Below are positions 42,457 through 57,037 of a stretch of DNA of 64,000 bases, piece by piece. The notes below the pieces were generated by a model. The model ran no database searches, was not told the DNA's origin, and saw nothing but the letters and a program-made list of their open reading frames with translations. Position numbers and translations under genes: made by a program. Position 1 is the first letter of the stretch; every line of letters starts with the position of its first letter. The DNA comes from Cellvibrio zantedeschiae (GTDB taxonomy: Bacteria > Pseudomonadota > Gammaproteobacteria > Pseudomonadales > Cellvibrionaceae): NCBI RefSeq assembly GCF_014652535.1, contig NZ_BMYZ01000001.1:682001-746000 (forward strand), written 5' to 3'.

Positions 42457-44481
42457 ATGCTGAATGTAAATAAACTTATTTGGTGTGGCTGTTTTTCCAT
42501 AGCTTCAGCACAAGCTATGGCTCAAAGTGGCATTGAAACATTGGTCATAACGGGTGAGCGTTCTGGCGCTTCAATCAGTGGTGCGCGACTAGTTGATGCA
42601 GATGAATTTCAGCCGGGCAGCCGAGCCGATGCAGCAGAACTTTTGCAAGGTGTAAATGGTGTGCAAGCTGATAGCCGCTCGAACTACGCACAAGATACAC
42701 GTATCACCTTACGCGGATTCGGGGCGCGTGCGGCCTTTGGTGTGCGCGGATTAAAGCTGCAAATCGATGGTATTCCACTGAGCATGCCGGATGGCCAGGG
42801 TCAGTTCTCAGGCGCAGTCCTGGATGGGGTTGAGCAAGTCAGTGTAGTCACCGGGCCCTCGGCGACACTTTATGGTAATGGGGCGGGTGGGGTAATAAAT
42901 CTTAAAACCGCCATTCCTCAAGCCAATTACATTTCTATAGACACAGCTGCCGACGAAGATGGTTTGGCTCGCCACCATATCCTGGGTGAGTTTCACGATG
43001 GCGCAATGAGTGCTCGCATTCAGGCCAGCAAGTTAAATGCAGAAGGAAATCGGCCCCATGCAAGTGCTGAGCGTGAGCAATTGGGGGCGCAGGTCTATTA
43101 CCAATTTGATAATGGTATTGAAGCCCAATGGCGATTCGATAAAGAGCGTGCACCATTGCTGCAAGATCCGCTCGGCCTTACCCAAACCCAGTGGCAAGAA
43201 GATCCCTATCAATTAAATTCAGGCGCGGAATTTTTTAACACTCGTAAAAGTATTGAGCATTTGCAAAATGCTTTTAGCCTGAGGCAAGAGCGCGGTGACC
43301 AGCGTTGGCAAATTGCGCTTTGGCGCGGTGATCGCCACATCCAGCAATATCTTGCACTGCGTGGCGATGCACTTTCTAACTCCGGCGGTGTAGTGGATTT
43401 ACACCGCAGCTTTAGCGGCGGTAATGGCAATTACACCTGGGATTTTGAGCTGGCGAATTCTCCAGCCAGTTTCACCTTGGGTGGCGAGTGGTCATCCATG
43501 AACGATGCGCGCAAGGGCTACGTGAATAACGCCGGCGTTGCTGGAGATTTGCGCCGCGATGAATTTAATGAAGCGGACAATCATGATGCCTACGCACTTT
43601 TGCAATGGCAGGTGACGGACAAATGGCAATGGTTGCTCGGTGCGCGCCAGTCTCACGTAGAATTGTCAGTAGCAGATTATTTTATTATCCCTGGCAAAAA
43701 TGCGGATGACAGCGGCGATAAAAAATTTTCGCGCTCGTCTGAAACGCTTGCCACTCGTTATCAAATTAATGAACAGATTTCGGTTCGCGCAGCCTTGGGT
43801 AGCGGGTTTGAAACTCCCACGCTAACGGAGATGGCATATACCAACGGCGATAAAGGTTTTAACAATACACTGGATGCAGCTACAAATCGCCAACAAGAAA
43901 TAAGTGTGGATTATCAGGGCAAAAAACTTACCTTGGGTGTAACCGCATTTGCAGTCAAAACGCAGGATGAATTAGTGGTAGACCAATCCAACAATGGTCG
44001 AACCACTTATATCAACGCAACGGCAACCGAGCGTAAAGGTGTAGAATTCAACTCGCGCTACGCATTTAATTCACATGTAGATTTACGCTTGGCCTTGAAT
44101 TATTTGGATGCTCTGTATACGGAAGGACAATTTGATAATTTGCAGTTACCGGGTGTTGCTAAACAAAATCATTATGTACAAATTAATTGGTCACCACTGG
44201 GTAATGAATTGCTTAGGTTGGGTTTAAACGGGGTTCATCGTGGTCAGGTTGCAACTAATGATAATAATCAGGTAAAAGCCCCGTCTTACACTACAGTTGA
44301 TCTTTCGGTGTCTGGTAAATTTAAATTCTATGTGCAGACTGATTGGTGGATAAAGCTTGCAAATATTGGCGACGAAAATTATGTAGGTTCGATTATCGTG
44401 AATCAAACCAATGGCCGCGCATTTGAACCGGCGAGCGGAAGGAATTTAGCCGCGGGTGTTAAATTTGGGTATGAGTTTTAA
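42457..44481 (+). CDS. TonB-dependent outer-membrane receptor, PqqU/YncD-like
   Basis: 674 residues from the ATG at 42457 after AAAGGTGG. A signal peptide ends near AMAQ. The plug domain begins GIETLVITGERSGAS. The block NYAQDTRITLRGFGARAAFGVRG followed by QIDGIPLSMPDGQGQ closely matches E. coli YncD (PqqU), the pyrroloquinoline quinone receptor. The barrel ends YEF with a terminal Phe. Uptake of PQQ or a similar small ligand is inferred from that match. No Fur box was found upstream. Confidence 0.82.
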   Translation: MLNVNKLIWCGCFSIASAQAMAQSGIETLVITGERSGASISGARLVDADEFQPGSRADAAELLQGVNGVQADSRSNYAQDTRITLRGFGARAAFGVRGLKLQIDGIPLSMPDGQGQFSGAVLDGVEQVSVVTGPSATLYGNGAGGVINLKTAIPQANYISIDTAADEDGLARHHILGEFHDGAMSARIQASKLNAEGNRPHASAEREQLGAQVYYQFDNGIEAQWRFDKERAPLLQDPLGLTQTQWQEDPYQLNSGAEFFNTRKSIEHLQNAFSLRQERGDQRWQIALWRGDRHIQQYLALRGDALSNSGGVVDLHRSFSGGNGNYTWDFELANSPASFTLGGEWSSMNDARKGYVNNAGVAGDLRRDEFNEADNHDAYALLQWQVTDKWQWLLGARQSHVELSVADYFIIPGKNADDSGDKKFSRSSETLATRYQINEQISVRAALGSGFETPTLTEMAYTNGDKGFNNTLDAATNRQQEISVDYQGKKLTLGVTAFAVKTQDELVVDQSNNGRTTYINATATERKGVEFNSRYAFNSHVDLRLALNYLDALYTEGQFDNLQLPGVAKQNHYVQINWSPLGNELLRLGLNGVHRGQVATNDNNQVKAPSYTTVDLSVSGKFKFYVQTDWWIKLANIGDENYVGSIIVNQTNGRAFEPASGRNLAAGVKFGYEF

Positions 44482-44565
44482 GTTCGGTGTGCTTGATGCT
44501 CTCGGTAATAGAAATCAACTTCGAGTACGGATATAAAAGCTACCTGTTAATTATTGAGAGATTTA

Positions 44566-47001
44566 GTGAGCCAGGACTTTACATCTAAAAATTTTCTAAA
44601 CAACTTGCCGCAATATCCGTTAACTGAATTGCGCAATGACTTTTTTCGCGCGCTTCACAAAGGAACCTTGTTATTGGAGGCCGAGCCGGGTGCGGGAAAA
44701 TCAACCCTTGCACCACTGTGGATGTTGCATCAGCTGGCCGCTAAACAAAAAATTATATTAGTACAACCTCGTGTACTGGCGGTCCAATCGCTTGCGCAGC
44801 GCTTGGCAGAGTTAGTTGGCGATGAAGTAGGGCAAACAGTAGCTTATCAAGTGCCCTACGATAATTGTGTTGGGGATAGCTCACGGCTAATAGTAATGAC
44901 ACCGGGAATTTTGCTGCAGCATTTGTTGCAAGATCCTACGCTGGAAAATATTGCCTGCGTAATGCTCGACGAAATTCACGAGCGTTCGGTCAACCAGGAT
45001 ACTGCCTGGGCGTGGCTACAAGAAGTACAAATTCTACGTGAAGACTTGCGCATTATTTTAATGAGCGCCACGCCCGATCCACAATTGCAGCAACAAATGC
45101 CGCAACGGTTATTTGCACCGGGGCGTTGCTTTCCCGTTTCAACCCAATATTTGCCTGCAAAAAATAACACACCTTATCCTGAGCGGGTTGAGGATCATGT
45201 TTTACGTGCACTGGTTTCTCATCCAGAATGGCAAGCTGCCACTACGCTGGTTTTTCTTGCGGGCTGGAGTGAGATTGAAAAGTGCACTCAGGCTATTCAA
45301 GCACGTTATCCGAACCAGGCTATTTTTCGATTGCACAGCCGTGTGCCCAATGTTGAGCAGAAACGCGCATTAAATCCTGCGTCGGGTCCGCGCATTATAT
45401 TGGCGACTAATATCGCAGAAACGTCCTTAACAATTGCTGATGTGACCTTAGTGATAGATTCGGGACAAGTGCGCCGCCCCGATTATGAACAGCGTACGGG
45501 CTTAACGCGTTTACGATTATCGCGCATTAGTCAGGCGAGTGCTGATCAGCGTCGTGGCCGTGCCGGGCGTGTACAGCAGGGGCACTGTATTCGCTTATGG
45601 TCACAAGACCAGCCTTTGGCCGCAGCCGATTTGCCAGAAATTCGCGCAACAGATTATTTGCCGCTTGCACTGCGTCTTGCGCACTGGGGAAGCCCTGCCT
45701 TGTCCTTGCCGTGGCTGGAATCCCCCAATAAATTAGCGCTGGATTTTGCGCAACAGCAGTTGCGGCAAATGAAACTGCTAGACGCTGACAATAAAATTAC
45801 TCCAGCGGGGGAGCAGGTGAGCGCATTGGGCACTCATCCGCGCATAGCTGCTTTTTTATTAGCGCAGGAAAAATCTATTGCTGAAGCTGAGATGCTCCTG
45901 GCCTTGGCTTTGCATTTTGATTTGTCGTGCGAAACTGATATAGATGATTTACTGCAACTTGCAGCGCAGGAATTGCAGCGCAATCGCCAGTGGCAACATC
46001 AGCAAAAACGTTGGCTACAAAAATTACAATTAACAATAGTGTCGGCTGATAAGCTTCAAGTAAATAATTTGGCGCGCGCCTTCAGTGATCGCATTGGTTA
46101 CCAACAGGATTCAGGCCGGTTTAGGTTGAATTCTGGCATCAGTGTGGAACCCCAAGCCAAACTTGATTCGCAGTGGGCGGTGTTTCCCATTATTAATTCA
46201 AAGCCTAAAGGTCATAGCGGTATTGGAATAGCTTTGCAATTATCTGCCGATGAGCAACGTAGCCTTAGCCAACAGCAAAGCCGATTGATTCACAAGGGTA
46301 GCATGTGGCAGCTCCACAACGAATGGCGAATGGGCGGGGTCGTTATTGGCGAAGAATTTGTTGCGCTTGCTGCGGAACAAATTCCTAAGCTACTGTTAAA
46401 TTTAATTCAGGAAAAAATTGCTGAAAAAGGTTTAATGCAGCTCAGCTGGAGCGCCAATGCCGAGCGACTTTTACAGCGAGCGCGCTTTGTGCAATCCCAG
46501 TCGCTGCTGGATTTGCCCAATTTGAATGATGAAGCTTTAACCGCAACTTTAGATATTTGGCTTTTGCCTTTTTTAACCGCCCAAACAACGCTGGACCAAT
46601 TGCCTTGGTTGAATGCGTTGGAGTTTTATTTAGGATATGAAAACTGCCAGGCTATAGCGCAAGCCTTGCCAGAAAAAATTGAGTTACCGAGTGGGCGCCA
46701 TGTTGTTGTAGAATTTTCGGCTGAGGGCGTACCGCAGGTGTCGGCAAAGCTGCAAGAATTTTTTGGTTGTGAGCAATTGCAACTGGCGGGTGGCAAGTTA
46801 CCTTTAAAAATTCATTTGCTTTCGCCTAATGGCAGCCCGCTGGCGATTACTATGAATTTACAAACTTTTTGGCGGCAAGCCTATCCGGAAGTTCGCAAAG
46901 AGATGCGCGGTAAATATCCACGGCATCCCTGGCCAGAAAATCCGCTTGAGCATGAAGCTACAGCCTTAACAAAACGAAAGTTGGCATTACAACAAAAATA
47001 A
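44566..47001 (+). CDS. hrpB: ATP-dependent helicase HrpB (DEAH-box)
   Basis: About 811 residues from a GTG at 44566 with GAGAG five bases before it; TTG at 44554 is an alternative. Walker A is EAEPGAGKST, the DEAH box reads DEIHERS, and motif III MSATPD. Motif VI QRRGRAGRVQQG is followed by an HA2 domain and the HrpB C-terminal domain (MRGKYPRHPWPENP). HrpB is a DExH RNA helicase-like protein of unclear role. A gap of 16 bases separates it from the DUF4260 gene. Confidence 0.93.
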   Translation: MSQDFTSKNFLNNLPQYPLTELRNDFFRALHKGTLLLEAEPGAGKSTLAPLWMLHQLAAKQKIILVQPRVLAVQSLAQRLAELVGDEVGQTVAYQVPYDNCVGDSSRLIVMTPGILLQHLLQDPTLENIACVMLDEIHERSVNQDTAWAWLQEVQILREDLRIILMSATPDPQLQQQMPQRLFAPGRCFPVSTQYLPAKNNTPYPERVEDHVLRALVSHPEWQAATTLVFLAGWSEIEKCTQAIQARYPNQAIFRLHSRVPNVEQKRALNPASGPRIILATNIAETSLTIADVTLVIDSGQVRRPDYEQRTGLTRLRLSRISQASADQRRGRAGRVQQGHCIRLWSQDQPLAAADLPEIRATDYLPLALRLAHWGSPALSLPWLESPNKLALDFAQQQLRQMKLLDADNKITPAGEQVSALGTHPRIAAFLLAQEKSIAEAEMLLALALHFDLSCETDIDDLLQLAAQELQRNRQWQHQQKRWLQKLQLTIVSADKLQVNNLARAFSDRIGYQQDSGRFRLNSGISVEPQAKLDSQWAVFPIINSKPKGHSGIGIALQLSADEQRSLSQQQSRLIHKGSMWQLHNEWRMGGVVIGEEFVALAAEQIPKLLLNLIQEKIAEKGLMQLSWSANAERLLQRARFVQSQSLLDLPNLNDEALTATLDIWLLPFLTAQTTLDQLPWLNALEFYLGYENCQAIAQALPEKIELPSGRHVVVEFSAEGVPQVSAKLQEFFGCEQLQLAGGKLPLKIHLLSPNGSPLAITMNLQTFWRQAYPEVRKEMRGKYPRHPWPENPLEHEATALTKRKLALQQK

Positions 47002-47017
47002 CAGACAGGAAATACTT

Positions 47018-47416
47018 ATGAGTAAACTTGAGCAGGGTTATGTTACAGGGCATGTGCGTTGGTTATTGCGCCTGGAAGGCCTTGCCATTTTTCTATTTGC
47101 ATTGATGGCCTATGAATTTATGGGCTTCCAGTGGGGATTTTTTATTTTAGTCTTCCTCGCGCCCGATTTATCTTTCTTCGCCTATTTCCACAGCTCGCGT
47201 GTTGGGGCTATTGCTTATAACACCATGCACTCCTATATTTTACCGCTCATGCTGTTTGCCTACGGCTTTTTTGTGTCTTCATCTAATGCTAATCAATTGG
47301 CGATTATTTGGATTGCGCACATAGGTTTTGACCGTGCATTAGGTTTTGGCGTGAAGTATTCCAAAGGTTTTCGTTACACCCATTTTGGCAAGTTAGGGCA
47401 TAGCAAAGAAAATTAA
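47018..47416 (+). CDS. DUF4260 family membrane protein
   Basis: 132 residues with four membrane helices. FFILVFLAPDLSFFAYF and the C-terminal HIGFDRALGFGVKYSKGFRYTHFGKLG are hallmarks of DUF4260. Function unknown. It follows hrpB closely and starts the run of small plus-strand genes. Confidence 0.8.
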   Translation: MSKLEQGYVTGHVRWLLRLEGLAIFLFALMAYEFMGFQWGFFILVFLAPDLSFFAYFHSSRVGAIAYNTMHSYILPLMLFAYGFFVSSSNANQLAIIWIAHIGFDRALGFGVKYSKGFRYTHFGKLGHSKEN

Positions 47417-47446
47417 TTGTGCCGTGCCAGAAGCGCGGGAGGCCTT

Positions 47447-47737
47447 ATGAATCCGAACAAAGTAGATCGTAACAAGCTTGGCAAGCTGACAGATTTACCA
47501 AATATCGGTAAAGCCATGGCTGCAGATTTGCAATTGCTAGGCATAAACGTTCCCGCTGATTTAATTGCCTGTGATGCCTTTCAACTCTATGACGATTTAT
47601 GTCATTTAACGAACGTTAAGCACGATCCCTGCGTGATAGACGTTTTTATGTCGGTGGTTAGTTTTATGCAAGGCGAACCAGCGCGCCCCTGGTGGGAATA
47701 CACTTCCGCACGGAAAGAAATCTTACGTCAACAATAA
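47447..47737 (+). CDS. Cdd1-family helix-hairpin-helix protein
   Basis: 96 residues from the ATG at 47447 after GCGGGAGG. LGKLTDLPNIGKAMAADLQLLGI is a helix-hairpin-helix module, and KHDPCVIDVFMSVVSFM with PWWEYTSARK is typical of the Cdd1 (pathogenicity locus or mitomycin-resistance-like) family. It possibly binds DNA. Real function unknown. Confidence 0.8.
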   Translation: MNPNKVDRNKLGKLTDLPNIGKAMAADLQLLGINVPADLIACDAFQLYDDLCHLTNVKHDPCVIDVFMSVVSFMQGEPARPWWEYTSARKEILRQQ

Positions 47738-47750
47738 TAAGGTGGTAGCT

Positions 47751-48035
47751 ATGAGCATTACACGTATAAATCATTTTGAAGCCAAAGCTGGCAGCGAAGC
47801 AGATTTACTGGCTTTTATGCAAGACGTAGTTAACGAAGTTAGCAAAGCAGATGGCTGTATCAAATGCCATTTATTAAAAGGTGCAGAAAATAGCGCACAG
47901 CTCGCAGTAATAGAAGAATTGATATCAATCGCACATCACCAAGCCGCGGCCAGTATTATTCCTAAAGAAAGAATCCAGCAAGCAACGGTATTTTTCGCTA
48001 AGCCTCCTTTCGGTATTTACTACACAAACGAATAA
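47751..48035 (+). CDS. ABM-fold monooxygenase-like protein
   Basis: 94 residues from the ATG at 47751 after AAGGTGG. ITRINHFEAKAGSEADLLAFM, then GCIKCHLLKGAENSAQLAVIEE, fits the antibiotic-biosynthesis-monooxygenase dimeric alpha-beta barrel. Members bind small aromatic or haem-like ligands or act as oxygenases. It is 13 bases after the Cdd1 gene, probably one operon. Confidence 0.75.
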   Translation: MSITRINHFEAKAGSEADLLAFMQDVVNEVSKADGCIKCHLLKGAENSAQLAVIEELISIAHHQAAASIIPKERIQQATVFFAKPPFGIYYTNE

Positions 48036-48057
48036 TTAGAAATGGGTAATTCACCTT

Positions 48058-48486
48058 ATGAAAATCACAAATTGGTATTCGAATTTTGCGAAACAAATAT
48101 CGCGCTTTTGTGGTCGCCCTATAGTATTTGTATTTGCCATGGCAACGATATTGGTATGGATTATTAGCGGCCCGCTATTTGATTTCAGCGATACATGGCA
48201 GCTTGTGATTAATACCGCCACTACGATTATTACTTTTCTAATGGTGTTTTTAATTCAGAGCACACAAAATCGTGATACTGAAGCCATTCAAATAAAACTT
48301 GATGAACTTATTCGCGTTACCCAGGGCGCGCACAACAAATTGTTGGATTTAGAGGAGCTTGATGAAGCGCAATTGGATGAGTTTCGTCGTCGCTATGAAA
48401 TACTTGCCAGTCTTGCTCGTGCACGCATTGAAAAAGGTGAGGCCGATACAGACACACCTGAGATCAATGACAAAAGAGCTGAATAA
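48058..48486 (+). CDS. Low-affinity iron permease family protein
   Basis: 142 residues. Two membrane helices at about 22-40 and 48-66 flank the conserved SGPLFDFSDTWQLVINTATTIITF. FLIQSTQNRDTEAIQIKLDELIR follows, diagnostic for this family. A helical cytosolic tail follows. Transport of iron is only inferred from the fungal namesake. The stop lies 26 bases before the sigma gene start. Confidence 0.85.
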   Translation: MKITNWYSNFAKQISRFCGRPIVFVFAMATILVWIISGPLFDFSDTWQLVINTATTIITFLMVFLIQSTQNRDTEAIQIKLDELIRVTQGAHNKLLDLEELDEAQLDEFRRRYEILASLARARIEKGEADTDTPEINDKRAE

Positions 48487-48512
48487 AGCCAACTAAATAA
48501 ACAGGAATCAGA

Positions 48513-49760
48513 TTGGATAACCGCCAGCATATAGTTGCGAATATAAACGAAATCTATCGCCGCGAATCGCGCCGCGTTCTGGCCACGCTTATTCGTTTGT
48601 TACGCGATTTTGATTTGGCTGAGGAAGCATTGCACGATGCCTTTATTGCCGCCCTTGCGAAATGGCCGCTTGAAGGTGTGCCACAAAACCCGCGCGCGTG
48701 GTTAGTATCTACAGGGCGTTTTAAAGCGATTGACCACTTGCGTAGGCGAGCCTTATTTAATAAATCCCTTGCCGGTATTGCGGAGGAACTTGAATCCGCC
48801 GTGAGTGATAGCGAGGAGTGGTTTAACGATTCTATTGAAGATGACCAGTTAAAATTAATTTTTACCTGTTGCCACCCGAGCTTGTCTATTGAGGCCCAGC
48901 TTGCCTTGACCTTGCGTGAAGTGTGCGGGTTAACCACCGAGGAAATAGCGCGCGCTTTTTTAGCGACGCCACCGACAATTGCACAGCGAATTGTGCGCGC
49001 AAAAAATAAAATTCGCGACGCTGCTATTCCCTATGAAATCCCAGCGCAACATGAATTGCCAGCGCGTTTGAATGCGGTTTTGCACACTATTTATTTATTG
49101 TTTAACGAAGGCTATTCCGCGTCATCGGGGGATTTACTTACGCGCCAGCACCTCACACAGGAGGCCATTCGTTTAGGGCGTTTGCTGATAGAGCTTATCC
49201 CGCAATCGGAAGTGTTGGGGTTGTTAGGTTTGATGCTAGTGCAAGATTCGCGCACCACTGCACGTATGGATTCTGAGGGTAATTTGTTAACTCTGGAGCA
49301 GCAGAATCGCTCGTTATGGAATCGTCTACAAATTGCCGAGGCTTCTCAATTTATCCAGCGCGCATTAACTATGGGTGGCTTTGGCGTTTATTCTGTTCAA
49401 GCGGCCATAGCTGCCGTACATGCAGAAGCTACCAATTATGCAGATACCGATTGGCCGGAAATTATTGGGCTCTACGATCTCTTGTTGCGCATGAGTCCAT
49501 CGCCTGTCATCGAACTAAACCGCGCTGTGGCGCTCGCAATGCGCGATGGTGCAGAAGCAGGGTTGCAAGTAATTGACGCTATTAGTGCAAGAGGCGAATT
49601 ACAGGATTACTATCTGTTACATGCTGCACGCGCGGATTTTTACCGCCAGCTCGGCCAGCTAGACGCCGCTCGATCCTCCTACCAGCAGGCGTTAGCATTG
49701 ACTCAACAGGAGCCAGAGCGTCGTTTTTTGCGTGAAAAAATTGCCCGGTTGAGCGCCTAA
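48513..49760 (+). CDS. ECF RNA polymerase sigma factor, ECF42-type with C-terminal extension
   Basis: 415 residues from a TTG with AGGA six bases before it. Sigma region 2 covers about residues 15-85 (RDFDLAEEALHDAFIAALAKWP; FKAIDHLRRRA). Region 4 covers about 120-175 (TLREVCGLTTEEIARAFLATPPTIAQRIVRAKNKIR). A roughly 230-residue C-terminal domain begins IYLLFNEGYSASSG, the signature of the DUF6596/TPR-like extension of group ECF42. That group is known to lack a classical anti-sigma factor and to sit with DGPF/YCII genes, one of which lies at 52483. A matching promoter lies directly downstream. It likely directs transcription of the eight following genes. Confidence 0.88.
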   Translation: MDNRQHIVANINEIYRRESRRVLATLIRLLRDFDLAEEALHDAFIAALAKWPLEGVPQNPRAWLVSTGRFKAIDHLRRRALFNKSLAGIAEELESAVSDSEEWFNDSIEDDQLKLIFTCCHPSLSIEAQLALTLREVCGLTTEEIARAFLATPPTIAQRIVRAKNKIRDAAIPYEIPAQHELPARLNAVLHTIYLLFNEGYSASSGDLLTRQHLTQEAIRLGRLLIELIPQSEVLGLLGLMLVQDSRTTARMDSEGNLLTLEQQNRSLWNRLQIAEASQFIQRALTMGGFGVYSVQAAIAAVHAEATNYADTDWPEIIGLYDLLLRMSPSPVIELNRAVALAMRDGAEAGLQVIDAISARGELQDYYLLHAARADFYRQLGQLDAARSSYQQALALTQQEPERRFLREKIARLSA

Positions 49761-49811
49761 ATTGCCATTTAAAGGGTAATTTTAAAAAAATAAAAATATT
49801 TTTGGTTTGTG

Positions 49812-49838
49812 TGTCGATTTGCAGGATTAGCGAACGAC
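49812..49838 (+). promoter_or_regulatory. Putative ECF42-dependent promoter
   Basis: TGTCGA (49812-49817), a 17-base spacer, then CGAC (49835-49838; CGAAC also at 49831). It lies between the sigma gene stop and the first target gene, 34 bases before its ATG. The elements match the -35 TGTCGA and CGA-type -10 reported for ECF42 as I remember it. Confidence 0.65.
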
Positions 49839-49871
49839 TATTAAGTATCAATCACCCAAAGGAGTTGTGAA

Positions 49872-50330
49872 ATGCAAAAGATCACGCCGTTTTTATGGTT
49901 TAACGACAATGCGCTTGAAGCCGCTGAGTTTTACGCCTCCATTTTCAAGAATTCGGCCATCACTAATGTCACCCATGTGGGCCAAACAGATCGGGTTATG
50001 TCTGTCAGTTTTGAGCTGGAAGGGCAAGCCTTTCATGCGCTTAACGGTGGCCCTCATTTTACCTTTACGCCTGCAATTTCTTTATTTGTTGATTGCAAAG
50101 ACCAGGCAGAAGTCGACGATTTATGGGAACGTTTATCGGCGGACGGTGAAAAGTCCCGCTGTGGATGGCTAAAAGATAAATTTGGATTGTCCTGGCAAAT
50201 TATTCCCACACAAATGAGTCAGCTCTTGCGCGACTCTGATCCTGCAAAAGCTCAAGCGGTCATGAATGCCATGATGCAAATGAGCAAAATTGATATTGCT
50301 GTGTTACAGCAAGCCTACAACAAAATTTAA
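49872..50330 (+). CDS. PhnB-like VOC family protein
   Basis: 152 residues. KITPFLWFNDNALEAAEFYASIFKNS and the closing DKFGLSWQIIPTQMSQLL are typical of the PhnB/3-demethylubiquinone-methyltransferase-like VOC family (Pfam PF06983). Members are mostly uncharacterised; the name methyltransferase is historical. AAGGAG precedes the ATG. It is the first gene behind the putative ECF42 promoter. Confidence 0.88.
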   Translation: MQKITPFLWFNDNALEAAEFYASIFKNSAITNVTHVGQTDRVMSVSFELEGQAFHALNGGPHFTFTPAISLFVDCKDQAEVDDLWERLSADGEKSRCGWLKDKFGLSWQIIPTQMSQLLRDSDPAKAQAVMNAMMQMSKIDIAVLQQAYNKI

Positions 50331-50343
50331 TGAGGAGTTAATG

Positions 50344-50691
50344 ATGAAATATCAAGGTAGCTGCCACTGCGGAAAAATTGCGTTTGAAGCCGAAGGTGAA
50401 ATTGAAGGCGCATTGGCCTGTAATTGTTCTATTTGCCAACGTAAAGGCACGCTTTTATGGTTTGTGCCTGCGGATAAGGTGAACTTGTTAACACCGCGTG
50501 AAAACATCACAACTTACACCTTTAATAAACACATTATTAAGCATCAATTCTGTGGCGTGTGTGGCGTACAACCTTTTGGTGAAGCAATAGATCCAAAAGG
50601 GAATCCAACCTTTGCAATTAATATTCGCTGCATTGAGGGTATAGATCCCTTAGCTGTTCCTGTACACCATTACGACGGCAAATCCCTTTAA
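50344..50691 (+). CDS. GFA-domain protein (glutathione-dependent formaldehyde-activating enzyme-like)
   Basis: 115 residues; GGAG lies six bases before the ATG at 50344 (50341 is an alternative). Zinc ligands lie in GSCHCGKIAF, CNCSICQRKG and FCGVCGVQPF. The domain resembles Gfa/CENP-V proteins, which bind zinc and may scavenge thiol-aldehyde adducts. The role here is inferred as part of the sigma-linked cluster. Confidence 0.87.
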   Translation: MKYQGSCHCGKIAFEAEGEIEGALACNCSICQRKGTLLWFVPADKVNLLTPRENITTYTFNKHIIKHQFCGVCGVQPFGEAIDPKGNPTFAINIRCIEGIDPLAVPVHHYDGKSL

Positions 50692-50708
50692 TTTGTGAAT
50701 AGGAGTGT

Positions 50709-51077
50709 ATGAAAATGACCCAATATGTAGATGGTTTTTTATTGCCGCTGCCGGCAGATAAACTCGATGCTTATAAAGCAATGGCAAACAAAGCCGGTGA
50801 GGTTTGGATGGAGCACGGCGCTTTGGCCTACTGGGAAACCATTGGTGATGACATGAAGTCCGGCGGGAAAATGACATTTGAACAAGCCGCAGGCACTAAA
50901 GAAAATGAGTTGGTAGTATTTGCCTGGGTGGTATATCCCTCGCGTGAAGAGCGCGATGTGATAATGGCAAAAGTGTTTGCTGATCCTCGATTACAAGAAA
51001 ATTCTGAAATGCCATTTGATATGGATCGTATGGCCTATGCCGGTTTTAAACCCCTTGTTGTATTTAACAAAAACTAA
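50709..51077 (+). CDS. DUF1428 family protein
   Basis: 122 residues. QYVDGFLLPLPADKLDAYKAMA and the ending PFDMDRMAYAGFKPLV match DUF1428, a ferredoxin-like dimeric alpha-beta-barrel family. VFAWVVYPSREERD is also conserved. An AGGAG site serves the ATG at 50709 or 50715. Family function unknown; it recurs with YCII and VOC genes. Confidence 0.87.
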   Translation: MKMTQYVDGFLLPLPADKLDAYKAMANKAGEVWMEHGALAYWETIGDDMKSGGKMTFEQAAGTKENELVVFAWVVYPSREERDVIMAKVFADPRLQENSEMPFDMDRMAYAGFKPLVVFNKN

Positions 51078-51094
51078 TGAGTAAGGAGAAAAAA

Positions 51095-51496
51095 ATGGCC
51101 AAGCAAATATTTGTGAATTTAGCGGTTAAGGATTTACCAAAATCCAAAACATTTTTTGGAAGCCTGGGTTATAGCTTTAATCCGCAATTTACCAACGATG
51201 ACGCTGCCTGCATGGTGATTAGCGACACTATCTATGTCATGTTGTTAACTGAACCTTTCTTTAAAGGCTTTACAAGTAAAGAGTTAGTTGATGCAAAAAA
51301 ATCTACAGAAGTGTTGGTGTGTTTGTCCTCTGAAAGTCGCGCAGATGTTGAAGAGACTGTACGAAAAGCTGTAGCTGCCGGTGGAAGAATTTATAACGAG
51401 CCGCAAGATCACGGCTTTATGTACTGCCACGGTTTTGAGGATTTGGATGGTCATCAATGGGAATTTGCGTTTATGGAACCGAGCCATATTCAATAA
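51095..51496 (+). CDS. VOC family protein (lactoylglutathione-lyase-like)
   Basis: 133 residues from the ATG at 51095 with AAGGAG six bases before; an ATG at 51077 overlaps the previous stop but has no ribosome site. IFVNLAVKDLPKSKTFFGSLG begins the first module, and GFMYCHGFEDLDGHQWEFAFM ends the second. It is paralogous to the next gene. Confidence 0.85.
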   Translation: MAKQIFVNLAVKDLPKSKTFFGSLGYSFNPQFTNDDAACMVISDTIYVMLLTEPFFKGFTSKELVDAKKSTEVLVCLSSESRADVEETVRKAVAAGGRIYNEPQDHGFMYCHGFEDLDGHQWEFAFMEPSHIQ

Positions 51497-51516
51497 TCGG
51501 AATTACGGAGTCAGCC

Positions 51517-51915
51517 ATGAGTTTGGATACCATTTTTGTCAACATTCCCGTAAATGACCTCGACAGGTCTATCACTTTTTATTCGGCAATGGGTTTTACA
51601 CCGCACCCGGTATTTCGTGGTGAAGGTGCTTCCTGCATGTGTATCAGCGAATACATTAATGTTGTTTTGCAGAGCCACGAACACTTCAAGCAATTCACGG
51701 ATAAACCGATTGTTAACCCTGCACAAAGCACGGGTGTGTTGTTGTGTTTGCATTGCGATAGCCCTGCGCATGTTGATGACTTAGTGAAAACGGCGGTGAA
51801 AGCGGGCGGCACAAGTCCAACTGAGGCGAAAGATTATGGATTTTTATATAGCCATGGTTTTACAGACCCAGATGGATATATATGGATTTTGAATCATATA
51901 TATCCCACGACTTAA
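51517..51915 (+). CDS. VOC family protein, tandem paralogue
   Basis: 132 residues from the ATG at 51517 after ACGGAG. IFVNIPVNDLDRSITFYSAMG and YGFLYSHGFTDPDGYIWIL align throughout with the upstream copy; both share SCMCIS/ACMVIS and the spacing of the second half. Likely an old tandem duplication with diverged ligand pockets. Confidence 0.85.
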   Translation: MSLDTIFVNIPVNDLDRSITFYSAMGFTPHPVFRGEGASCMCISEYINVVLQSHEHFKQFTDKPIVNPAQSTGVLLCLHCDSPAHVDDLVKTAVKAGGTSPTEAKDYGFLYSHGFTDPDGYIWILNHIYPTT

Positions 51916-51937
51916 TTCCGTTTGAAAAGGTGAAACA

Positions 51938-52471
51938 ATGTTTAGATTAATTTTAATAATTGTGGTTTGTTTTGTGGCGGGAATACTGATTTATGCCGCA
52001 ACAAAACCGAACCGCTTCAGTATTGTGCGCAAGTTAAAAATTAATGCTGATCCCGAAAAAGTGTTTGCAGAAATCAATGATTTCACACGCTGGAAATTAT
52101 GGTCGCCATGGGAAACGAAAGATCCCGCTATGCAACGAACCTATTCCGGCTCGGCAGCTGGTATAGGTGCAATATATGAATGGAATGGCGATAAAAATTT
52201 AGGGACGGGGAAAATGGAAATTACTGACTCTGTTGCCGGGCAGAATATTATCATCAAATTGGATTTCTATAAGCCCTTCGAAGCACACAATGTTGCTGAA
52301 TTTACCTTCACCCCAGAAGGCGATGGAACTCTGGTTACCTGGGAGATGCGTGGCCCACAAGTTTTTATGGGTAAGCTTATGTGTGTATTTATGGATATGG
52401 ACAAAATGGTTGGGAAAGACTTTGAAGCCGGTTTGTCCAAATTAAAAACATTAACTGAAAATCCTGATTAA
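51938..52471 (+). CDS. SRPBCC (START-like) family protein with N-terminal membrane anchor
   Basis: 177 residues. A membrane helix at about 3-22 is followed by SIVRKLKINADPEKVFAEINDFTRWKLWSPWE, the start of a polyketide-cyclase/AHSA1-like helix-grip fold. TLVTWEMRGPQVFMGKL and a long C-terminal helix complete it. It binds hydrophobic ligands in related proteins. Confidence 0.85.
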   Translation: MFRLILIIVVCFVAGILIYAATKPNRFSIVRKLKINADPEKVFAEINDFTRWKLWSPWETKDPAMQRTYSGSAAGIGAIYEWNGDKNLGTGKMEITDSVAGQNIIIKLDFYKPFEAHNVAEFTFTPEGDGTLVTWEMRGPQVFMGKLMCVFMDMDKMVGKDFEAGLSKLKTLTENPD

Positions 52472-52482
52472 GAGTAAACCTT

Positions 52483-52869
52483 ATGAAATACCTCGCCCTT
52501 ATTTACTACGAAGAAAAAACGATTAACGCTATGACTCAATCGGAATGGCAATCACTCAACGAAGAGTGCGTTGCCTGTGGCGAAGATTTGCGTAGTGGCG
52601 GTTACATGCTGGGTGGCAATGCATTGCATCCGGTCACCACTGCCACCAGCGTGCGCGTGCGCGATGGAAAACAATTGGTGACCGATGGCCCCTTTGCTGA
52701 AACTAAAGAGCAGCTTGCCGGTTTTTATTTACTGGAAGCGCGCGATTTAAATGAAGCAATTCAAATTGCCAGCAAGATTCCGCCTGCGCGTTTGGGGTGC
52801 GTTGAAATACGTCCTATACGGGAATTGAATCCCGAAAAAGATGAACGTTTACAGCCGCAGTTTTCTTAA
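52483..52869 (+). CDS. YCII-related DGPF family protein
   Basis: 128 residues. MKYLALIYYEE opens the dimeric alpha-beta barrel, VTDGPFAETKEQLAGFYLLEA holds the DGPF motif, and IPPARLGCVEIRPI closes it. DGPF proteins are the partners most often found with ECF42 sigma factors. It is probably a transcriptional target of the sigma factor at 48513. Confidence 0.92.
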   Translation: MKYLALIYYEEKTINAMTQSEWQSLNEECVACGEDLRSGGYMLGGNALHPVTTATSVRVRDGKQLVTDGPFAETKEQLAGFYLLEARDLNEAIQIASKIPPARLGCVEIRPIRELNPEKDERLQPQFS

Positions 52870-52893
52870 ATCTCTTGTGAAGGATTTATAATT

Positions 52894-53367
52894 ATGAGCC
52901 CACGTTTTATAGAACAGCCTCCATTACTAATAGCGGGCATGCGCGAACCGCTTGATGAACAGAGCGCGGAAAAAATTCCACTCTTGTGGCAAAAATTTGG
53001 TCCCTACATTAATCACATTCCTTTCCAAAAAAATGCCGTTGCTTACGGTTTATGTGTGCGCAGCAGTGAAAGTAGTAACGGACATTATTACTACATGGCC
53101 GGATGTGAAGTCAGTGAGTTTGGGAATTTGCCTCCGGATTTAAGTCCACTCATAGTGCCTGCGCATAAATACGCAGTCTTCACGCATGAAGGACATGTGT
53201 CGTCTATTAGAAGCACCATCGATTATATTTTTGATCAATGGTTGCCCAAGTCCAGCTATAAACATAATTCACAATCGATTCATTTTTTTGAGCGCTACGC
53301 TGAAGATTTTGATCCGGTTAAGGGTGTAGGCGGTATAGAAATATGGCTGCCATTAGAACTCTCTTAA
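52894..53367 (+). CDS. GyrI-like small-molecule-binding domain protein
   Basis: 157 residues. It begins PRFIEQPPLLIAGMREPLDEQSAEKIPLLWQKFGPYINHIP and includes VPAHKYAVFTHEGHVSSIRSTIDYIFDQWLPKS, typical of the GyrI/Rob C-terminal effector-binding domain without a DNA-binding part. Such proteins bind or hydrolyse drug-like compounds. It is the last gene of the putative ECF42 regulon. Confidence 0.87.
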   Translation: MSPRFIEQPPLLIAGMREPLDEQSAEKIPLLWQKFGPYINHIPFQKNAVAYGLCVRSSESSNGHYYYMAGCEVSEFGNLPPDLSPLIVPAHKYAVFTHEGHVSSIRSTIDYIFDQWLPKSSYKHNSQSIHFFERYAEDFDPVKGVGGIEIWLPLELS

Positions 53368-53541
53368 TTAATGCTGAACGCGTGGAATTTTTGCTGTATT
53401 TTTTTCTTGCACAAAGCTTCCATATTCTTTGCATGCTTGCTTACTGTTATTTACAGGGATAAGTGCATAATTAACTCATCTGCAATAAATTTTTTGCAGC
53501 CTGTTTGAGTCATTATTCACTTCCTTCTGCGGAGAGCAATT

Positions 53542-54099
53542 ATGCAAAAATTAATTATGCAAAAGTCAGTTATGAAGCATTTAAATATGAAGAAGCTAAG
53601 TATGCTGATGGCCGCAATCGTGGCCACCAGTATTTTTAGTTTTCCAGCTGTTGCGCAAACCGATGTAGTAAAGAAATGCGAGCCAAGCGAACATCATGAG
53701 CGTTTTGCCGATGAAAAGGGTGATGCTGAGCCTTGGGTATCCAGGCATAAATTCAAACACCATTTTCCTGCGGCTAAGTTAGATTTAACCGATGAACAGA
53801 AAAAAGTTCTTGAGGATGCCCGCAATGCCCAGGAGCCCGCGCAACGAGAATTGCATGACAAATTGCGAACCGCACATGAAGCACTGATTAAAGCTGGCGA
53901 AACTAATGCCGATGATGTGACGCTTGCGCGATTGGCAAAGGACTTTTCGGAGCTTCTTGCTCAACAGGAATTGGCGCGTATCAACATGCATAAGCAATTC
54001 GTCAGTGTGTTAACGCCTGAGCAAAAACAAAAGCTGGATTCATTTAAAGCTGAACGAAAAAATTCGCCACACAAGCGAGAGTTTAGAAAGCAAGAATAG
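53542..54099 (+). CDS. Spy/CpxP-like periplasmic protein (LTXXQ motifs)
   Basis: 185 residues; GGAGAG lies five bases before the ATG at 53542, although the signal peptide core begins at Met16 (MKKLSMLMAAIVATSIFSFPAVAQ). Two LTXXQ motifs occur: LTDEQKKVL near residue 79 and LTPEQKQKL near residue 155. The mature protein is helical. Spy and CpxP are periplasmic chaperones or stress sensors. A BaeSR-like pair at 57211-59372 could be its regulator, since Spy is a Bae/Cpx target in E. coli. Confidence 0.82.
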   Translation: MQKLIMQKSVMKHLNMKKLSMLMAAIVATSIFSFPAVAQTDVVKKCEPSEHHERFADEKGDAEPWVSRHKFKHHFPAAKLDLTDEQKKVLEDARNAQEPAQRELHDKLRTAHEALIKAGETNADDVTLARLAKDFSELLAQQELARINMHKQFVSVLTPEQKQKLDSFKAERKNSPHKREFRKQE

Positions 54100-54143
54100 T
54101 GGCAACCGACACAACTTTTTTCCAGCCATAGTATTTCCATTGA

Positions 54144-54181
54144 GCCGGGCATTTACTTAATTTCAAAAGTGAATGCTCGGC
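54144..54181. terminator. Hairpin after the Spy-like gene
   Basis: GCCGGGCATTTACT (54144-54157) pairs with AGTGAATGCTCGGC (54168-54181) with two GU pairs; loop of 10 bases. There is no strong T run, so termination is probable but not certain. Confidence 0.5.
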
Positions 54182-54277
54182 GCATTGTTTATTCGAATTA
54201 TTCCTTCTGCTTTTCCGCTGCGAATTTTTTAATCCTGCCTATACTTTCAGAATATTCCGGCACATGGATTTCATCTT

Positions 54278-55384
54278 ATGGTGAAGAAAGTTCTGGCTAT
54301 TTCCTTATTGTGTACAGCTTCCCCTAATATTTTTGCGGAAGAGGCCCAAGCATATACGTGGGCTCATGCCTTAACACTGGAATCAATCACCAACCTTCAT
54401 GGTGGGGTTGAAACAGGCACACGCAATCTCGCTAATTTGGATTTAACGCTGAGCGTGGATACGCAAGCCGCAGGTTGGTGGAGTAGCGGCACGCTCTTTA
54501 TTTATGTTTTGGGAAACTATGGTAAGCCGCCTTCTGCACTTACTGGCGAATTGCAAACCCTATCCAATATTGAAGCTGAAAATAATTTAACGCTTTATGA
54601 ATTTTGGTATGAGCATAGCTTTGCCGAAGGTAATGTTAAGTTATTGGTGGGATTGCATGATTACAATTCCACATTTTATTCGCTCGAGTCTGCCAGTCTA
54701 TTCAATTTGTCTTCAATGGGAATTGGTCCCGAAATCGCACAAGTTACGCCCTCAATTTTTCCAGTAACCGCAGCTACTGTTCATTTAACGCTGAGTCATG
54801 AGGACCAATATTTTTTATTGGCTGTGTACGATGGCGTGCCCGGCGATCCTTCGCATCCTCATGGCACGCACGTAAAATTTGGCGATGATGATGGTTTGTT
54901 AATGGCGACCGAGTGGGGCTTCGCGCAGGAACACGATTATAAAATTGCTTTAGGTGCCTGGCGCCATACAGCAGCTATTGAAAATCCTGTTGATGGAAGC
55001 CTTATCGACTCTAACAACGGTTTTTACCTGCTTGGTGAAAAATATTTTTCCGAAAATTTTTCCGCATTTTTTCAGTATGGTCGTGCTAACGAAAATAAAA
55101 ACCAATTGGAAAGTTATTTGGGGTTAGGAGTCAGTTACAAAAATCCGTGGATAGATGGCGATGTTATAGGCTTGGCCTATGCAAAAGCTAAAAATAGCGC
55201 CGATTATTTAAAAGTGAATCCTGATGTGTTGTCTGCTGAAACTGTTGTGGAGTTATCTTACTTTCGACCATTAATGGAAAAGGTAAGTATCCAATCGAGT
55301 TTGTATTCAGTGATGAATCCTGGCATGGCACCGGACCTTGATAATAGTTTGGCCGTGGGTTTGCGGCTCTACGTTGAATTTTAA
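54278..55384 (+). CDS. OprB-family carbohydrate-selective porin
   Basis: 368 residues with a signal peptide ending near IFA. The sequence is dominated by alternating beta strands. NLANLDLTLSVDT, LYEFWYEHSF, LLVGLHDYNSTFY and AVYDGVPGDPSHPHGTHVKF match OprB porins, which pass sugars across the outer membrane. The C-terminus LRLYVEF ends in Phe, as outer-membrane barrels do. Slightly shorter than the usual 400-450 residues. Confidence 0.85.
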   Translation: MVKKVLAISLLCTASPNIFAEEAQAYTWAHALTLESITNLHGGVETGTRNLANLDLTLSVDTQAAGWWSSGTLFIYVLGNYGKPPSALTGELQTLSNIEAENNLTLYEFWYEHSFAEGNVKLLVGLHDYNSTFYSLESASLFNLSSMGIGPEIAQVTPSIFPVTAATVHLTLSHEDQYFLLAVYDGVPGDPSHPHGTHVKFGDDDGLLMATEWGFAQEHDYKIALGAWRHTAAIENPVDGSLIDSNNGFYLLGEKYFSENFSAFFQYGRANENKNQLESYLGLGVSYKNPWIDGDVIGLAYAKAKNSADYLKVNPDVLSAETVVELSYFRPLMEKVSIQSSLYSVMNPGMAPDLDNSLAVGLRLYVEF

Positions 55385-55435
55385 TTGCCTGATTGATTGT
55401 AGTGTCAGGATGAAACCATTAGGTGGGAGTGCTTC

Positions 55436-57037
55436 ATGAATATCAAAAAGGCAATAATTATTGGGCTGCTAGCGTTTGTATCGGTGATGGGTGTGAGCAC
55501 CTACATAGGCCATAGCGCTACCGGGGAAATGTCGCGCATGCTTGATTATATTACCGGGCCGGCCTGGAATACCGCTGACGGCGCCATGGAAGGACAGATC
55601 GAGCTTGAAAATCAAATTATTACGTTGCAGCGCTTATACAGCAAAAAAATTGACCAGAGTAGCGCACGAGCACAATTGACTAACGCGATGGAACGCGAAA
55701 CTGATGCTCTTGATCGCATGAAAGCACAGGGTTTGATGGATGCCGCACAGGTATCCGAATTAAACACCAAGCTTGATGCCTATCATAAAATGCGTGATCA
55801 ATTGTTCAACCAACTTGCAAATAATTCGGAAAGTGCTGAAGCCACTTTTAAATTATTCGATGATCAGGTTGAAAGCTTACTTAATTTTATTTCGCAAATG
55901 GAAGAAGTAGCAGATGGCAAAGTAGAGGGACAAACAAAAAGTATTGCAGGTGTAGTTTCGGGGGCAAATTTCAAACTGATTTTCGGTTTGTTGTTCTCAT
56001 TGGCGATGGCAGGCTTGGTATTTTATTTTGCGATAAAAATTATTTTAAATCCTATTGAAACTGTGACGACGCAATTATCTTTGTTAAGTGCAGGGTCTGG
56101 TGATTTAACAGTGCGCTTGCCCGACGCCAACAGAGACGCTGAAGTCGGGCGCTTAGCCTATGCGTTCAATACCTTTGTGCAAAAACTTCAAGCCTTGATT
56201 AGCCAGGTGCAACACAGCAATCATTCTTTAATGGCGGCGAGTTCGCAAATTACCCAGAGCATTGGAACTACAGCTGCGGTGGCTAGTGCCCAGGTGACGG
56301 AAATTTCCCTGGTGGCAGAAGCTGTTCAAAAAATTTCTGATTCGTTATTTAAAGTGGGTGATGCTGCCGAGCGGGCTAATCAGGCTTCTGAGCAAGCTGT
56401 ACTGAGCACTCATTCCGGCAACCACATTGTTGTACTTGCTCAGCAGGGCGTAGATCAGGTTGCAAACGAAGTAGATAAAGCCTCGCAAGTCATTTCAAAT
56501 TTGGTGACCGACAGCCAAAACATCAGCGCCATGTTGGAAGTGATCCGCAGTATCGCCGAGCAAACCAATTTGCTCGCGTTAAATGCTGCAATTGAAGCAG
56601 CGCGCGCTGGCGAAACCGGACGAGGATTCGCGGTAGTTGCTGACGAGGTTAGAAGTTTGGCTTCCCGCACACAGGAATCAACCAAATCAATTGAAACTAT
56701 TATTACCAACTTATCCTCTGGCTCTGCAAAAGCGGTTGAGGTCATGAACAGTGCGCAGAAACAAGCACTAATGATTAAAGAGCGTATAGGAAAAACGTCT
56801 GGCGCTTTTGCGGATATTGTGGGCGTTGTGGAGCAAATAAAATCGATGAACGCCCATATTGCCCATGCATCTGAAGATGAAAAGCAAGAAATGGCGCAGA
56901 TTAATGGCAGCATTAATAAAATTTTAAAACAAGCTCGCGACAACCAGGATGCCGGAGAGCTGGCGCAAGTCTCTCGCCAGCATTTGGAAACCCAGGTTCT
57001 AAAAGTTGAAGAGCTACTTAAACAGTTTAGAACCTGA
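55436..57037 (+). CDS. Methyl-accepting chemotaxis protein
   Basis: 533 residues. Membrane helices at about 5-24 and 180-202 flank a helical periplasmic sensor domain. HAMP spans about 203-257. The signalling tip is [19 protein letters not shown] near residue 375. No CheR-binding pentapeptide is at the C-terminus. GGTGGGAG precedes the ATG. The ligand is unknown. The gene follows the sugar porin by 51 bases, so sugar sensing is possible. Confidence 0.92.

Follow-up and report, generated by a model that had tools for sequence, protein, structure and literature searches.

A 64,000-nucleotide stretch of the Cellvibrio zantedeschiae genome (contig NZ_BMYZ01000001.1, positions 682,001 to 746,000; hereafter the window) carries a gene for an extracytoplasmic function (ECF) sigma factor of the ECF42 type, directly followed on the + strand by an operon of eight genes (49872-53367) from small-molecule fold families. 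Between them, at 49812-49840, lies a predicted promoter whose consensus accompanies such sigma genes across the family Cellvibrionaceae. Promoters of the same predicted type precede further genes elsewhere in the genome. The operon and these in-trans genes probably constitute, as judged from sequence, an ECF42 regulon for protection against xenobiotic or electrophilic compounds.

The sigma factor and its predicted promoter

By Pfam comparison the sigma part of the protein holds regions 2 and 4 only, and these, like the DUF6596 domain that follows (112.9 bits against 27), score above the curated cut-off. The C-terminal extension of about 200 residues has DUF6596/TPR (tetratricopeptide repeat) character. 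Its end is TPR-like, with the TPR models under their cut-offs, and the extension bears, at residues 194-201 of the protein, the YLLFNEGY motif that the original prediction had picked out; FNEGY is kept in relatives. DUF6596, which we infer to be a mark of ECF42, is reported in passages of PMC11119718 from 30% of 16,854 prokaryote genomes, nearly always in sigma factors. No anti-sigma family was found by Pfam among the neighbour proteins scanned; the upstream iron-permease-like membrane protein could still be a regulator of the sigma factor. A YCII (DGPF) gene lies in the neighbourhood, at 52483-52869. Together with a promoter of the TGTCG-N17-CGWC type, these features bear out the assignment to ECF42 made in the original prediction. 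Among the 25 of 45 matches listed for the NCBIfam sigma models, every score is below its cut-off. ECF41 factors (SigJ, SigI) likewise have a C-terminal extension instead of an anti-sigma factor, but theirs is a SnoaL domain; Pfam finds no SnoaL match in the window's protein, which scores far under the cut-off of the SigJ model (24.4 of 271 bits) and of the SigI model (28.4 of 317 bits).

Within the family, the mean top-residue frequency is 0.57-0.65 in the extension versus 0.67 and 0.72 in the sigma domains. Across phyla it is 0.73-0.76 versus 0.78 and 0.83, values biased upwards by resting on the best 80 of at least 562 relatives. Polar or aromatic extension residues invariant in many phyla are Y194, E199, Y201, R247, R251, Q264, W269, H303, T312, W314 and N336. 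Such conservation fits an extension that would be needed for activity; sequence comparison yields no clear relative of known structure for it.

The promoter element, absent from the original prediction and added by the present analysis, has the layout TGTCGATTT-N14-CGACTA and lies in the 111 nucleotides between the sigma gene and the first operon gene. It is the sole mismatch-free match within the window to the extended consensus TGTCGA-N17-CGACTA. In sequence it resembles the promoters mapped for RpoE10, the S. meliloti ECF42 factor; passages of PMC6180224 give these as TGTCGG-N17-CGTC. It places a TGTCG-N17-CGTC-type promoter ahead of the presumed targets, with CGAC replacing CGTC. No ECF42-type site was found before the sigma gene on its own strand (44396-49811, up to three mismatches allowed); this search gave 29 hits versus 29.0 expected, so that weak matches are uninformative in both directions.

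The element across genomes

Sites of the form TGTCGN-Nx-CGWC were counted at spacers of 12 to 22 in 89 family loci (88 fetched plus the window). The spacer of 17 stands out, with 79 sites on the sigma strand versus 16 on the other; at the ten other spacers the counts range from 2 to 16 and from 2 to 15. Less than 250 nucleotides upstream of an operon-family gene lie 81 of the 102 spacer-17 sites, and at the positions that the pattern leaves free, the sixth base is A in 80 of these and the second half reads CGAC rather than CGTC in 78, followed by T in 66 and A in 70. The window's site conforms to this extended consensus. In 88 family loci with an intact sigma open reading frame (ORF), the window included, the element stands just after the sigma gene only in 41, before it only in 13 (mostly ahead of a YCII gene), in both places in one and in neither in 33. 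Families near the sigma gene are YCII in 78 loci, VOC1-type in 26, VOC2-type in 22, GFA in 17, GyrI and DUF1428 in 15 each and SRPBCC in four. Gene calls in the fetched genomes were our own ORF picks, which may miss small genes, and family labels came from profiles built on the window's proteins and the in-trans clusters.

Some sites, at L055, L056, L089 and L092, have the form TGTCG-N18-CGACA; this is a near-perfect inverted repeat and fits the promoter pattern in either orientation, with a shift of one base. No spacer-17 element lies near the divergent, long-branched DUF6596 sigma factors of L122, L127 and L123-L126, which may read another promoter.

The extended motif was then counted in 144 family genomes, with the reversed motif as control; by PF20239, 84 of them contain the sigma factor. 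The element and the sigma factor go together: the 84 genomes hold 188 sites versus 34 of the control, and the 60 without the sigma factor hold 15 versus 40. In the window's genus (21 genomes) there are 78 sites versus 7, and in the C. zantedeschiae genome itself 4 versus 0. Outside the window, sites in that genome lie 65 nucleotides ahead of a YCII gene (139 amino acids), 18 ahead of a DUF899 gene and 102 ahead of a major facilitator superfamily (MFS) gene (406 amino acids), with start codons taken from our own ORF picks. For the MFS protein, the model of the Bcr/CflA efflux family gives 240 bits, above its cut-off of 200.9. A further site, of the CGTCTA form, lies 51 nucleotides ahead of a VOC gene; three other short-motif matches in this genome were not promoter-like on inspection. 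Because these four promoter-type sites precede YCII, DUF899, Bcr/CflA-type efflux and VOC genes elsewhere, the original description of a "self-contained" unit was abandoned.

Of all 203 sites in the family genomes, 150 were seen (51 in already fetched loci or the own genome, 25 in first-match loci and 74 fetched). Those off the sigma loci that were classed number 102 (25, 74 and 3 of the own genome), of which 95 come from genomes that have the sigma factor. Seventy-six of the 95 are placed as a promoter would be, with no long ORF over the site and an ORF start within 200 nucleotides, and 17 lie inside a long ORF. The reversed-control sites fall inside an ORF in 27 of 30 cases and are placed as promoters in 2; for sites in genomes without the sigma factor the figures are 5 and 1 of 7. 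Recurring gene clusters follow 71 of the 95. The genes concerned are YCII or a YCII-VOC fusion (23 sites in 19 genomes), Bcr/CflA-type MFS (11), AHSA1 (9), VOC (9), DUF1428 (7), DUF899 (4), DUF4287 (4), hydrolase-like (2) and RibD_C (2), with single cases that include GST-like, CMD/AhpD, GNAT-like, SnoaL-like and ABC ATPase genes; the hydrolase, GNAT, SnoaL and one GST label were assigned by eye. Two of the 102 sites had no ORF of at least 45 amino acids and were excluded from the clustering; one, in G024, is the cut-off start of the MFS gene. A three-site cluster 253 nucleotides before a TonB-like gene is probably due to chance.

In many genomes of the genus (e.g. G014:C3:208109), YCII and VOC1-type domains are fused in a protein of about 284 amino acids under the promoter, a hint that the two domains act jointly; C. 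zantedeschiae has an unfused YCII at the counterpart of this fusion. The most sites in the family sample, ten, occur in G022, of the same genus, before hydrolase-like, GNAT-like, SnoaL-like, AHSA1, VOC and YCII genes.

Comparison within the family, as the original prediction had proposed, shows the window's layout recurring, with losses, in G025, G026 and G029, and in G027 as far as the contig reaches. The sigma proteins of these genomes and the window form one clade (support 100), which lies beside 11 other proteins within a set of 16 same-genus sequences; the nearest tree rows to the window's protein are same-genus ECF42 proteins, while other parts of the tree have long branches and are unreliable. 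In the sister genomes G015, G020 and G028 the same families are near the sigma gene but apart from it, under sites of their own, with GFA on the other strand and DUF1428-VOC-YCII-GyrI farther downstream. Since the same genes thus stand under the same element in differing arrangements, a real regulon is argued for. Several of the operon's families are found behind ECF42 genes in many family members, and the window's run of such genes is the longest in 88 family loci, at 8, with the next at 6.

Beyond the family, the best 80 of at least 562 sigma relatives were taken as a wider set, from Pseudomonas and other proteobacteria, Pseudanabaena and other cyanobacteria, Planctomycetota, Nitrospira, Acidobacteria, Gemmatimonadetes, Chloroflexi, Bacteroidetes, Armatimonadetes and Fibrobacteria. 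At these loci of other phyla the spacer of 17 again leads, with 78 sites on the sigma strand versus 11 on the other; spacers of 13-16 and 18-21 give 6-28 and 5-26. Among 72 sites near sigma genes, CGAC is present in 69, with TA next in 50. Near the sigma genes of the 80 loci stand YCII (75), VOC1-type (22), AHSA1 (22), GyrI (11), DUF1428 (9), VOC2-type (7), DUF899 (3), SRPBCC (3), GFA (1) and MFS (1). With multi-family ECF42 operons in the family and in other phyla, the window is therefore no special case in this respect. In a class-wide sample of 274 genomes, sites of the strict motif were counted by hand; the 251 genomes without the sigma factor hold 32 sites, spread over 24 of them. Multi-site islands were seen in G171 (L399, L400), G228 (L397) and G352 (L398), some of their operons with DUF1428 or GFA genes.

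Operon products and flanking genes

The eight ORFs were recovered where the original prediction had placed them, on the same strand with gaps of 10, 17, -1, 23, 22, 11 and 24 nucleotides, and Pfam scores above cut-off uphold the families it had named (Table 1).

Table 1. Sigma gene, predicted promoter, operon genes and flanking genes, by position in the window.
Feature	Position	Strand	Basis and remarks
DUF4260, Cdd1, ABM, iron-permease-like genes	47018..48486	+	Pfam, ORFs; directly upstream of sigma gene
ECF42-type sigma factor	48513..49760	+	Pfam; 415 amino acids, TTG start
Predicted ECF42 promoter TGTCGATTTGCAGGATTAGCGAACGACTA	49812..49840	+	In 111-nucleotide gap, 31 nucleotides before first ATG
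PhnB-like VOC protein (PF06983), operon gene 1	49872..50330	+	Pfam, 150.6 bits
GFA-family protein	50341..50691	+	Pfam; solved relative 3fac
DUF1428 protein	50709..51077	+	Pfam; related to solved E. coli YbaA 2okq
VOC (glyoxalase-fold) protein	51077..51496	+	Pfam Glyoxalase; solved relative 4gym
Second VOC protein	51520..51915	+	Pfam Glyoxalase
SRPBCC protein	51938..52471	+	Pfam Polyketide_cyc2
YCII (DGPF) protein	52483..52869	+	Pfam; solved relative 1s7i, PA1349
GyrI-like protein, eighth and last operon gene	52894..53367	+	Pfam
LTXXQ (Spy-like) gene	53542..54099	+	174 nucleotides past operon

The PhnB-like protein is related to the solved 1u69 and to PhnB 3oms. The GFA protein has seven zinc-type cysteines (residues 8, 10, 27, 29, 32, 71 and 74), which we take to bind zinc. 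An alternative start at 51095 is possible for the first of the two neighbouring VOC genes, whose products are 44% identical (55 of 126 aligned residues) and are perhaps a tandem copy. For the SRPBCC protein, no relative of known structure was found by sequence. The GyrI-like protein is related to the drug-binding domains of solved regulators, including BrlR; according to passages of PMC5684135, GyrI-like proteins are drug binders, and members of one subfamily hydrolyse cyclopropanoids that alkylate DNA.

Upstream, the genes of a run HrpB-DUF4260-Cdd1-ABM-iron permease lead up to the sigma gene at intervals of 0-26 nucleotides, a spacing that makes co-transcription with it probable. The gene order is partly retained in G025, G026, G027 and G029. 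Cdd1 is the Pfam "Pathogenicity locus" family; ABM is another small ligand-type family, and the input side may therefore be part of the operon's theme. Downstream, the LTXXQ gene adjoins the operon in G025, G026 and G029 too. No terminator-like site was found on the + strand at 53050-53608, and the strong terminator-like hairpin at 54144-54181 lies beyond LTXXQ. Transcription of the operon may therefore continue into this gene.

Predicted function and competing explanations

Known ECF42 systems offer close parallels. As passages of PMC6180224 describe it, the RpoE10 regulon of S. meliloti shares with the window an ECF42 sigma factor, the N17 promoter type and an adjoining YCII gene, and includes SRPBCC-type (hydrophobic-ligand) and glyoxalase-like targets and a second target operon on another replicon. 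It differs in that six genes are raised there, whereas C. zantedeschiae has an operon of eight genes, with a pump, DUF899 and GyrI among the predicted targets; its -10 element is CGTC rather than CGACTA; and its YCII gene lies upstream of the sigma gene instead of within the downstream operon. The P. putida ECF-10 and S. venezuelae ECF42 factors, in passages of the review PMC8999054, have a TPR-type extension and a conserved YCII neighbour, as here; in those factors the extension is essential, and stress and antibiotic phenotypes are reported for ECF-10; these passages state no efflux gene under the sigma factor's own promoter type. No account of an ECF42 regulon that includes an efflux pump, DUF899 or DUF1428 came up in the literature search, whose coverage did not extend to the main ECF42 papers and which therefore does not prove absence.

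At the level of sequence, the type of sigma factor, the promoter-like element and its association with the sigma factor across family genomes are shown. In the mechanism that we infer for activation by the sigma factor, its signal, the enzyme activities and the protection conferred, the sigma factor would be made at a basal level, probably from the upstream gene run, and without self-feedback, because no ECF42-type site precedes it on its strand. Its C-terminal extension would register a signal, perhaps by binding a ligand directly or a protein partner (YCII is proposed as such in passages of PMC8999054), and the sigma factor would then steer RNA polymerase to TGTCGA-N17-CGACTA promoters. The promoter at 49812 would drive the operon, and at least three or four others in the genome the YCII, DUF899, Bcr/CflA-type efflux and VOC genes. 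The products would be small single-domain binders or enzymes, whose folds serve in other systems to sequester or alter molecules that are reactive or drug-like, together with a pump. Inducible protection against xenobiotic or electrophilic compounds is the most likely purpose. The small-molecule folds and the pump make such a response the simplest reading and support the detoxification theme of the original prediction; the sigma factor, the operon and the element-marked genes look like one coordinated chemical-defence programme.

Several observations weigh against this reading. In C. zantedeschiae itself the short motif is not enriched (8 sites versus 17 in the control), class-wide enrichment in the 22 other genomes with the sigma factor is slight (11 versus 7), and no element lies beside the sigma gene at 33 of the 88 family loci, many of them with divergent sigma proteins. 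In the class-wide sample, 11 of the 32 sites in genomes without the sigma factor come from G171, G228 and G352, which lack a detected DUF6596 gene, and 9 of these 11 precede YCII, DUF899, VOC1 or GST-like genes. Motif and detected sigma factor therefore do not track perfectly: either the sigma factor was missed by the assembly or the DUF6596 model, or another sigma factor reads the motif. Detoxification, moreover, is argued from fold families, and DUF1428, DUF899 and DUF4287 have no known function.

Of the competing explanations, the strongest, though still unlikely, is that the small proteins, and YCII in particular, act chiefly as regulators that bind a ligand and switch the sigma factor through its TPR-like extension, detoxification being secondary. 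YCII genes near 75 of the best 80 and 78 of the 88 sigma genes, the TPR-like end of the extension, and the partner proposal and a YCII-sigma fusion noted in passages of PMC8999054 speak for it; yet the element also precedes effector-type genes, pump included, at a great distance from the sigma gene, and YCII too is found far away, fused to VOC. A response to one specific carbonyl stress (formaldehyde, glyoxal or methylglyoxal), in which the GFA and VOC proteins would act as enzymes, is decidedly unlikely. The GFA protein has its full cysteine set and VOC genes recur under the promoter, but the near-constant neighbour of the sigma gene is YCII rather than VOC or GFA, GFA is near only 17 of the 88 family loci and one of the best 80 wider loci, and Bcr/CflA-type pump, AHSA1 and DUF899 genes share the element.

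It is very improbable that the genes tailor or resist a self-made secondary metabolite. SRPBCC (polyketide-cyclase-like), ABM and VOC folds are generally known from such clusters, but the same gene set is scattered over the genome in relatives, and a biosynthetic cluster was rejected for want of a core enzyme among the 17 proteins scanned (44554-57037). That the promoter match is due to chance and the operon unrelated to the sigma gene is hardly credible. A looser pattern, TGTCGA-N16..18-CGWC, does reach one match in 24 of 100 window shuffles; spacing, strand, place and extended consensus, however, recur in family loci and other phyla, and the idea was rejected because sites follow the sigma factor across family genomes, above control with it and below control without it.

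The protective regulon would thus be a large member of a known ECF42 kind. The view of the original prediction that it goes beyond the usual sigma-plus-DGPF pair and may be an undescribed pathway finds little backing. Its run of genes is the longest in the family sample, but the set is of the same kind as other ECF42 sets, and operons that combine several of these families behind an ECF42 gene are common, in many family members and other phyla. The predicted regulon offers concrete promoters, genes and stresses with which to test ECF42 function, and a likely context for DUF1428, DUF899, DUF4287 and YCII, families without an assigned function. More tentatively, ECF42 may be a widespread xenobiotic-response sigma factor whose own extension directly binds the inducing small molecule. 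If so, a constant sensor would drive a variable defence, its outputs swapped from a fixed toolkit of YCII, VOC, AHSA1/SRPBCC, DUF1428, GFA, GyrI, DUF899 and a drug pump.

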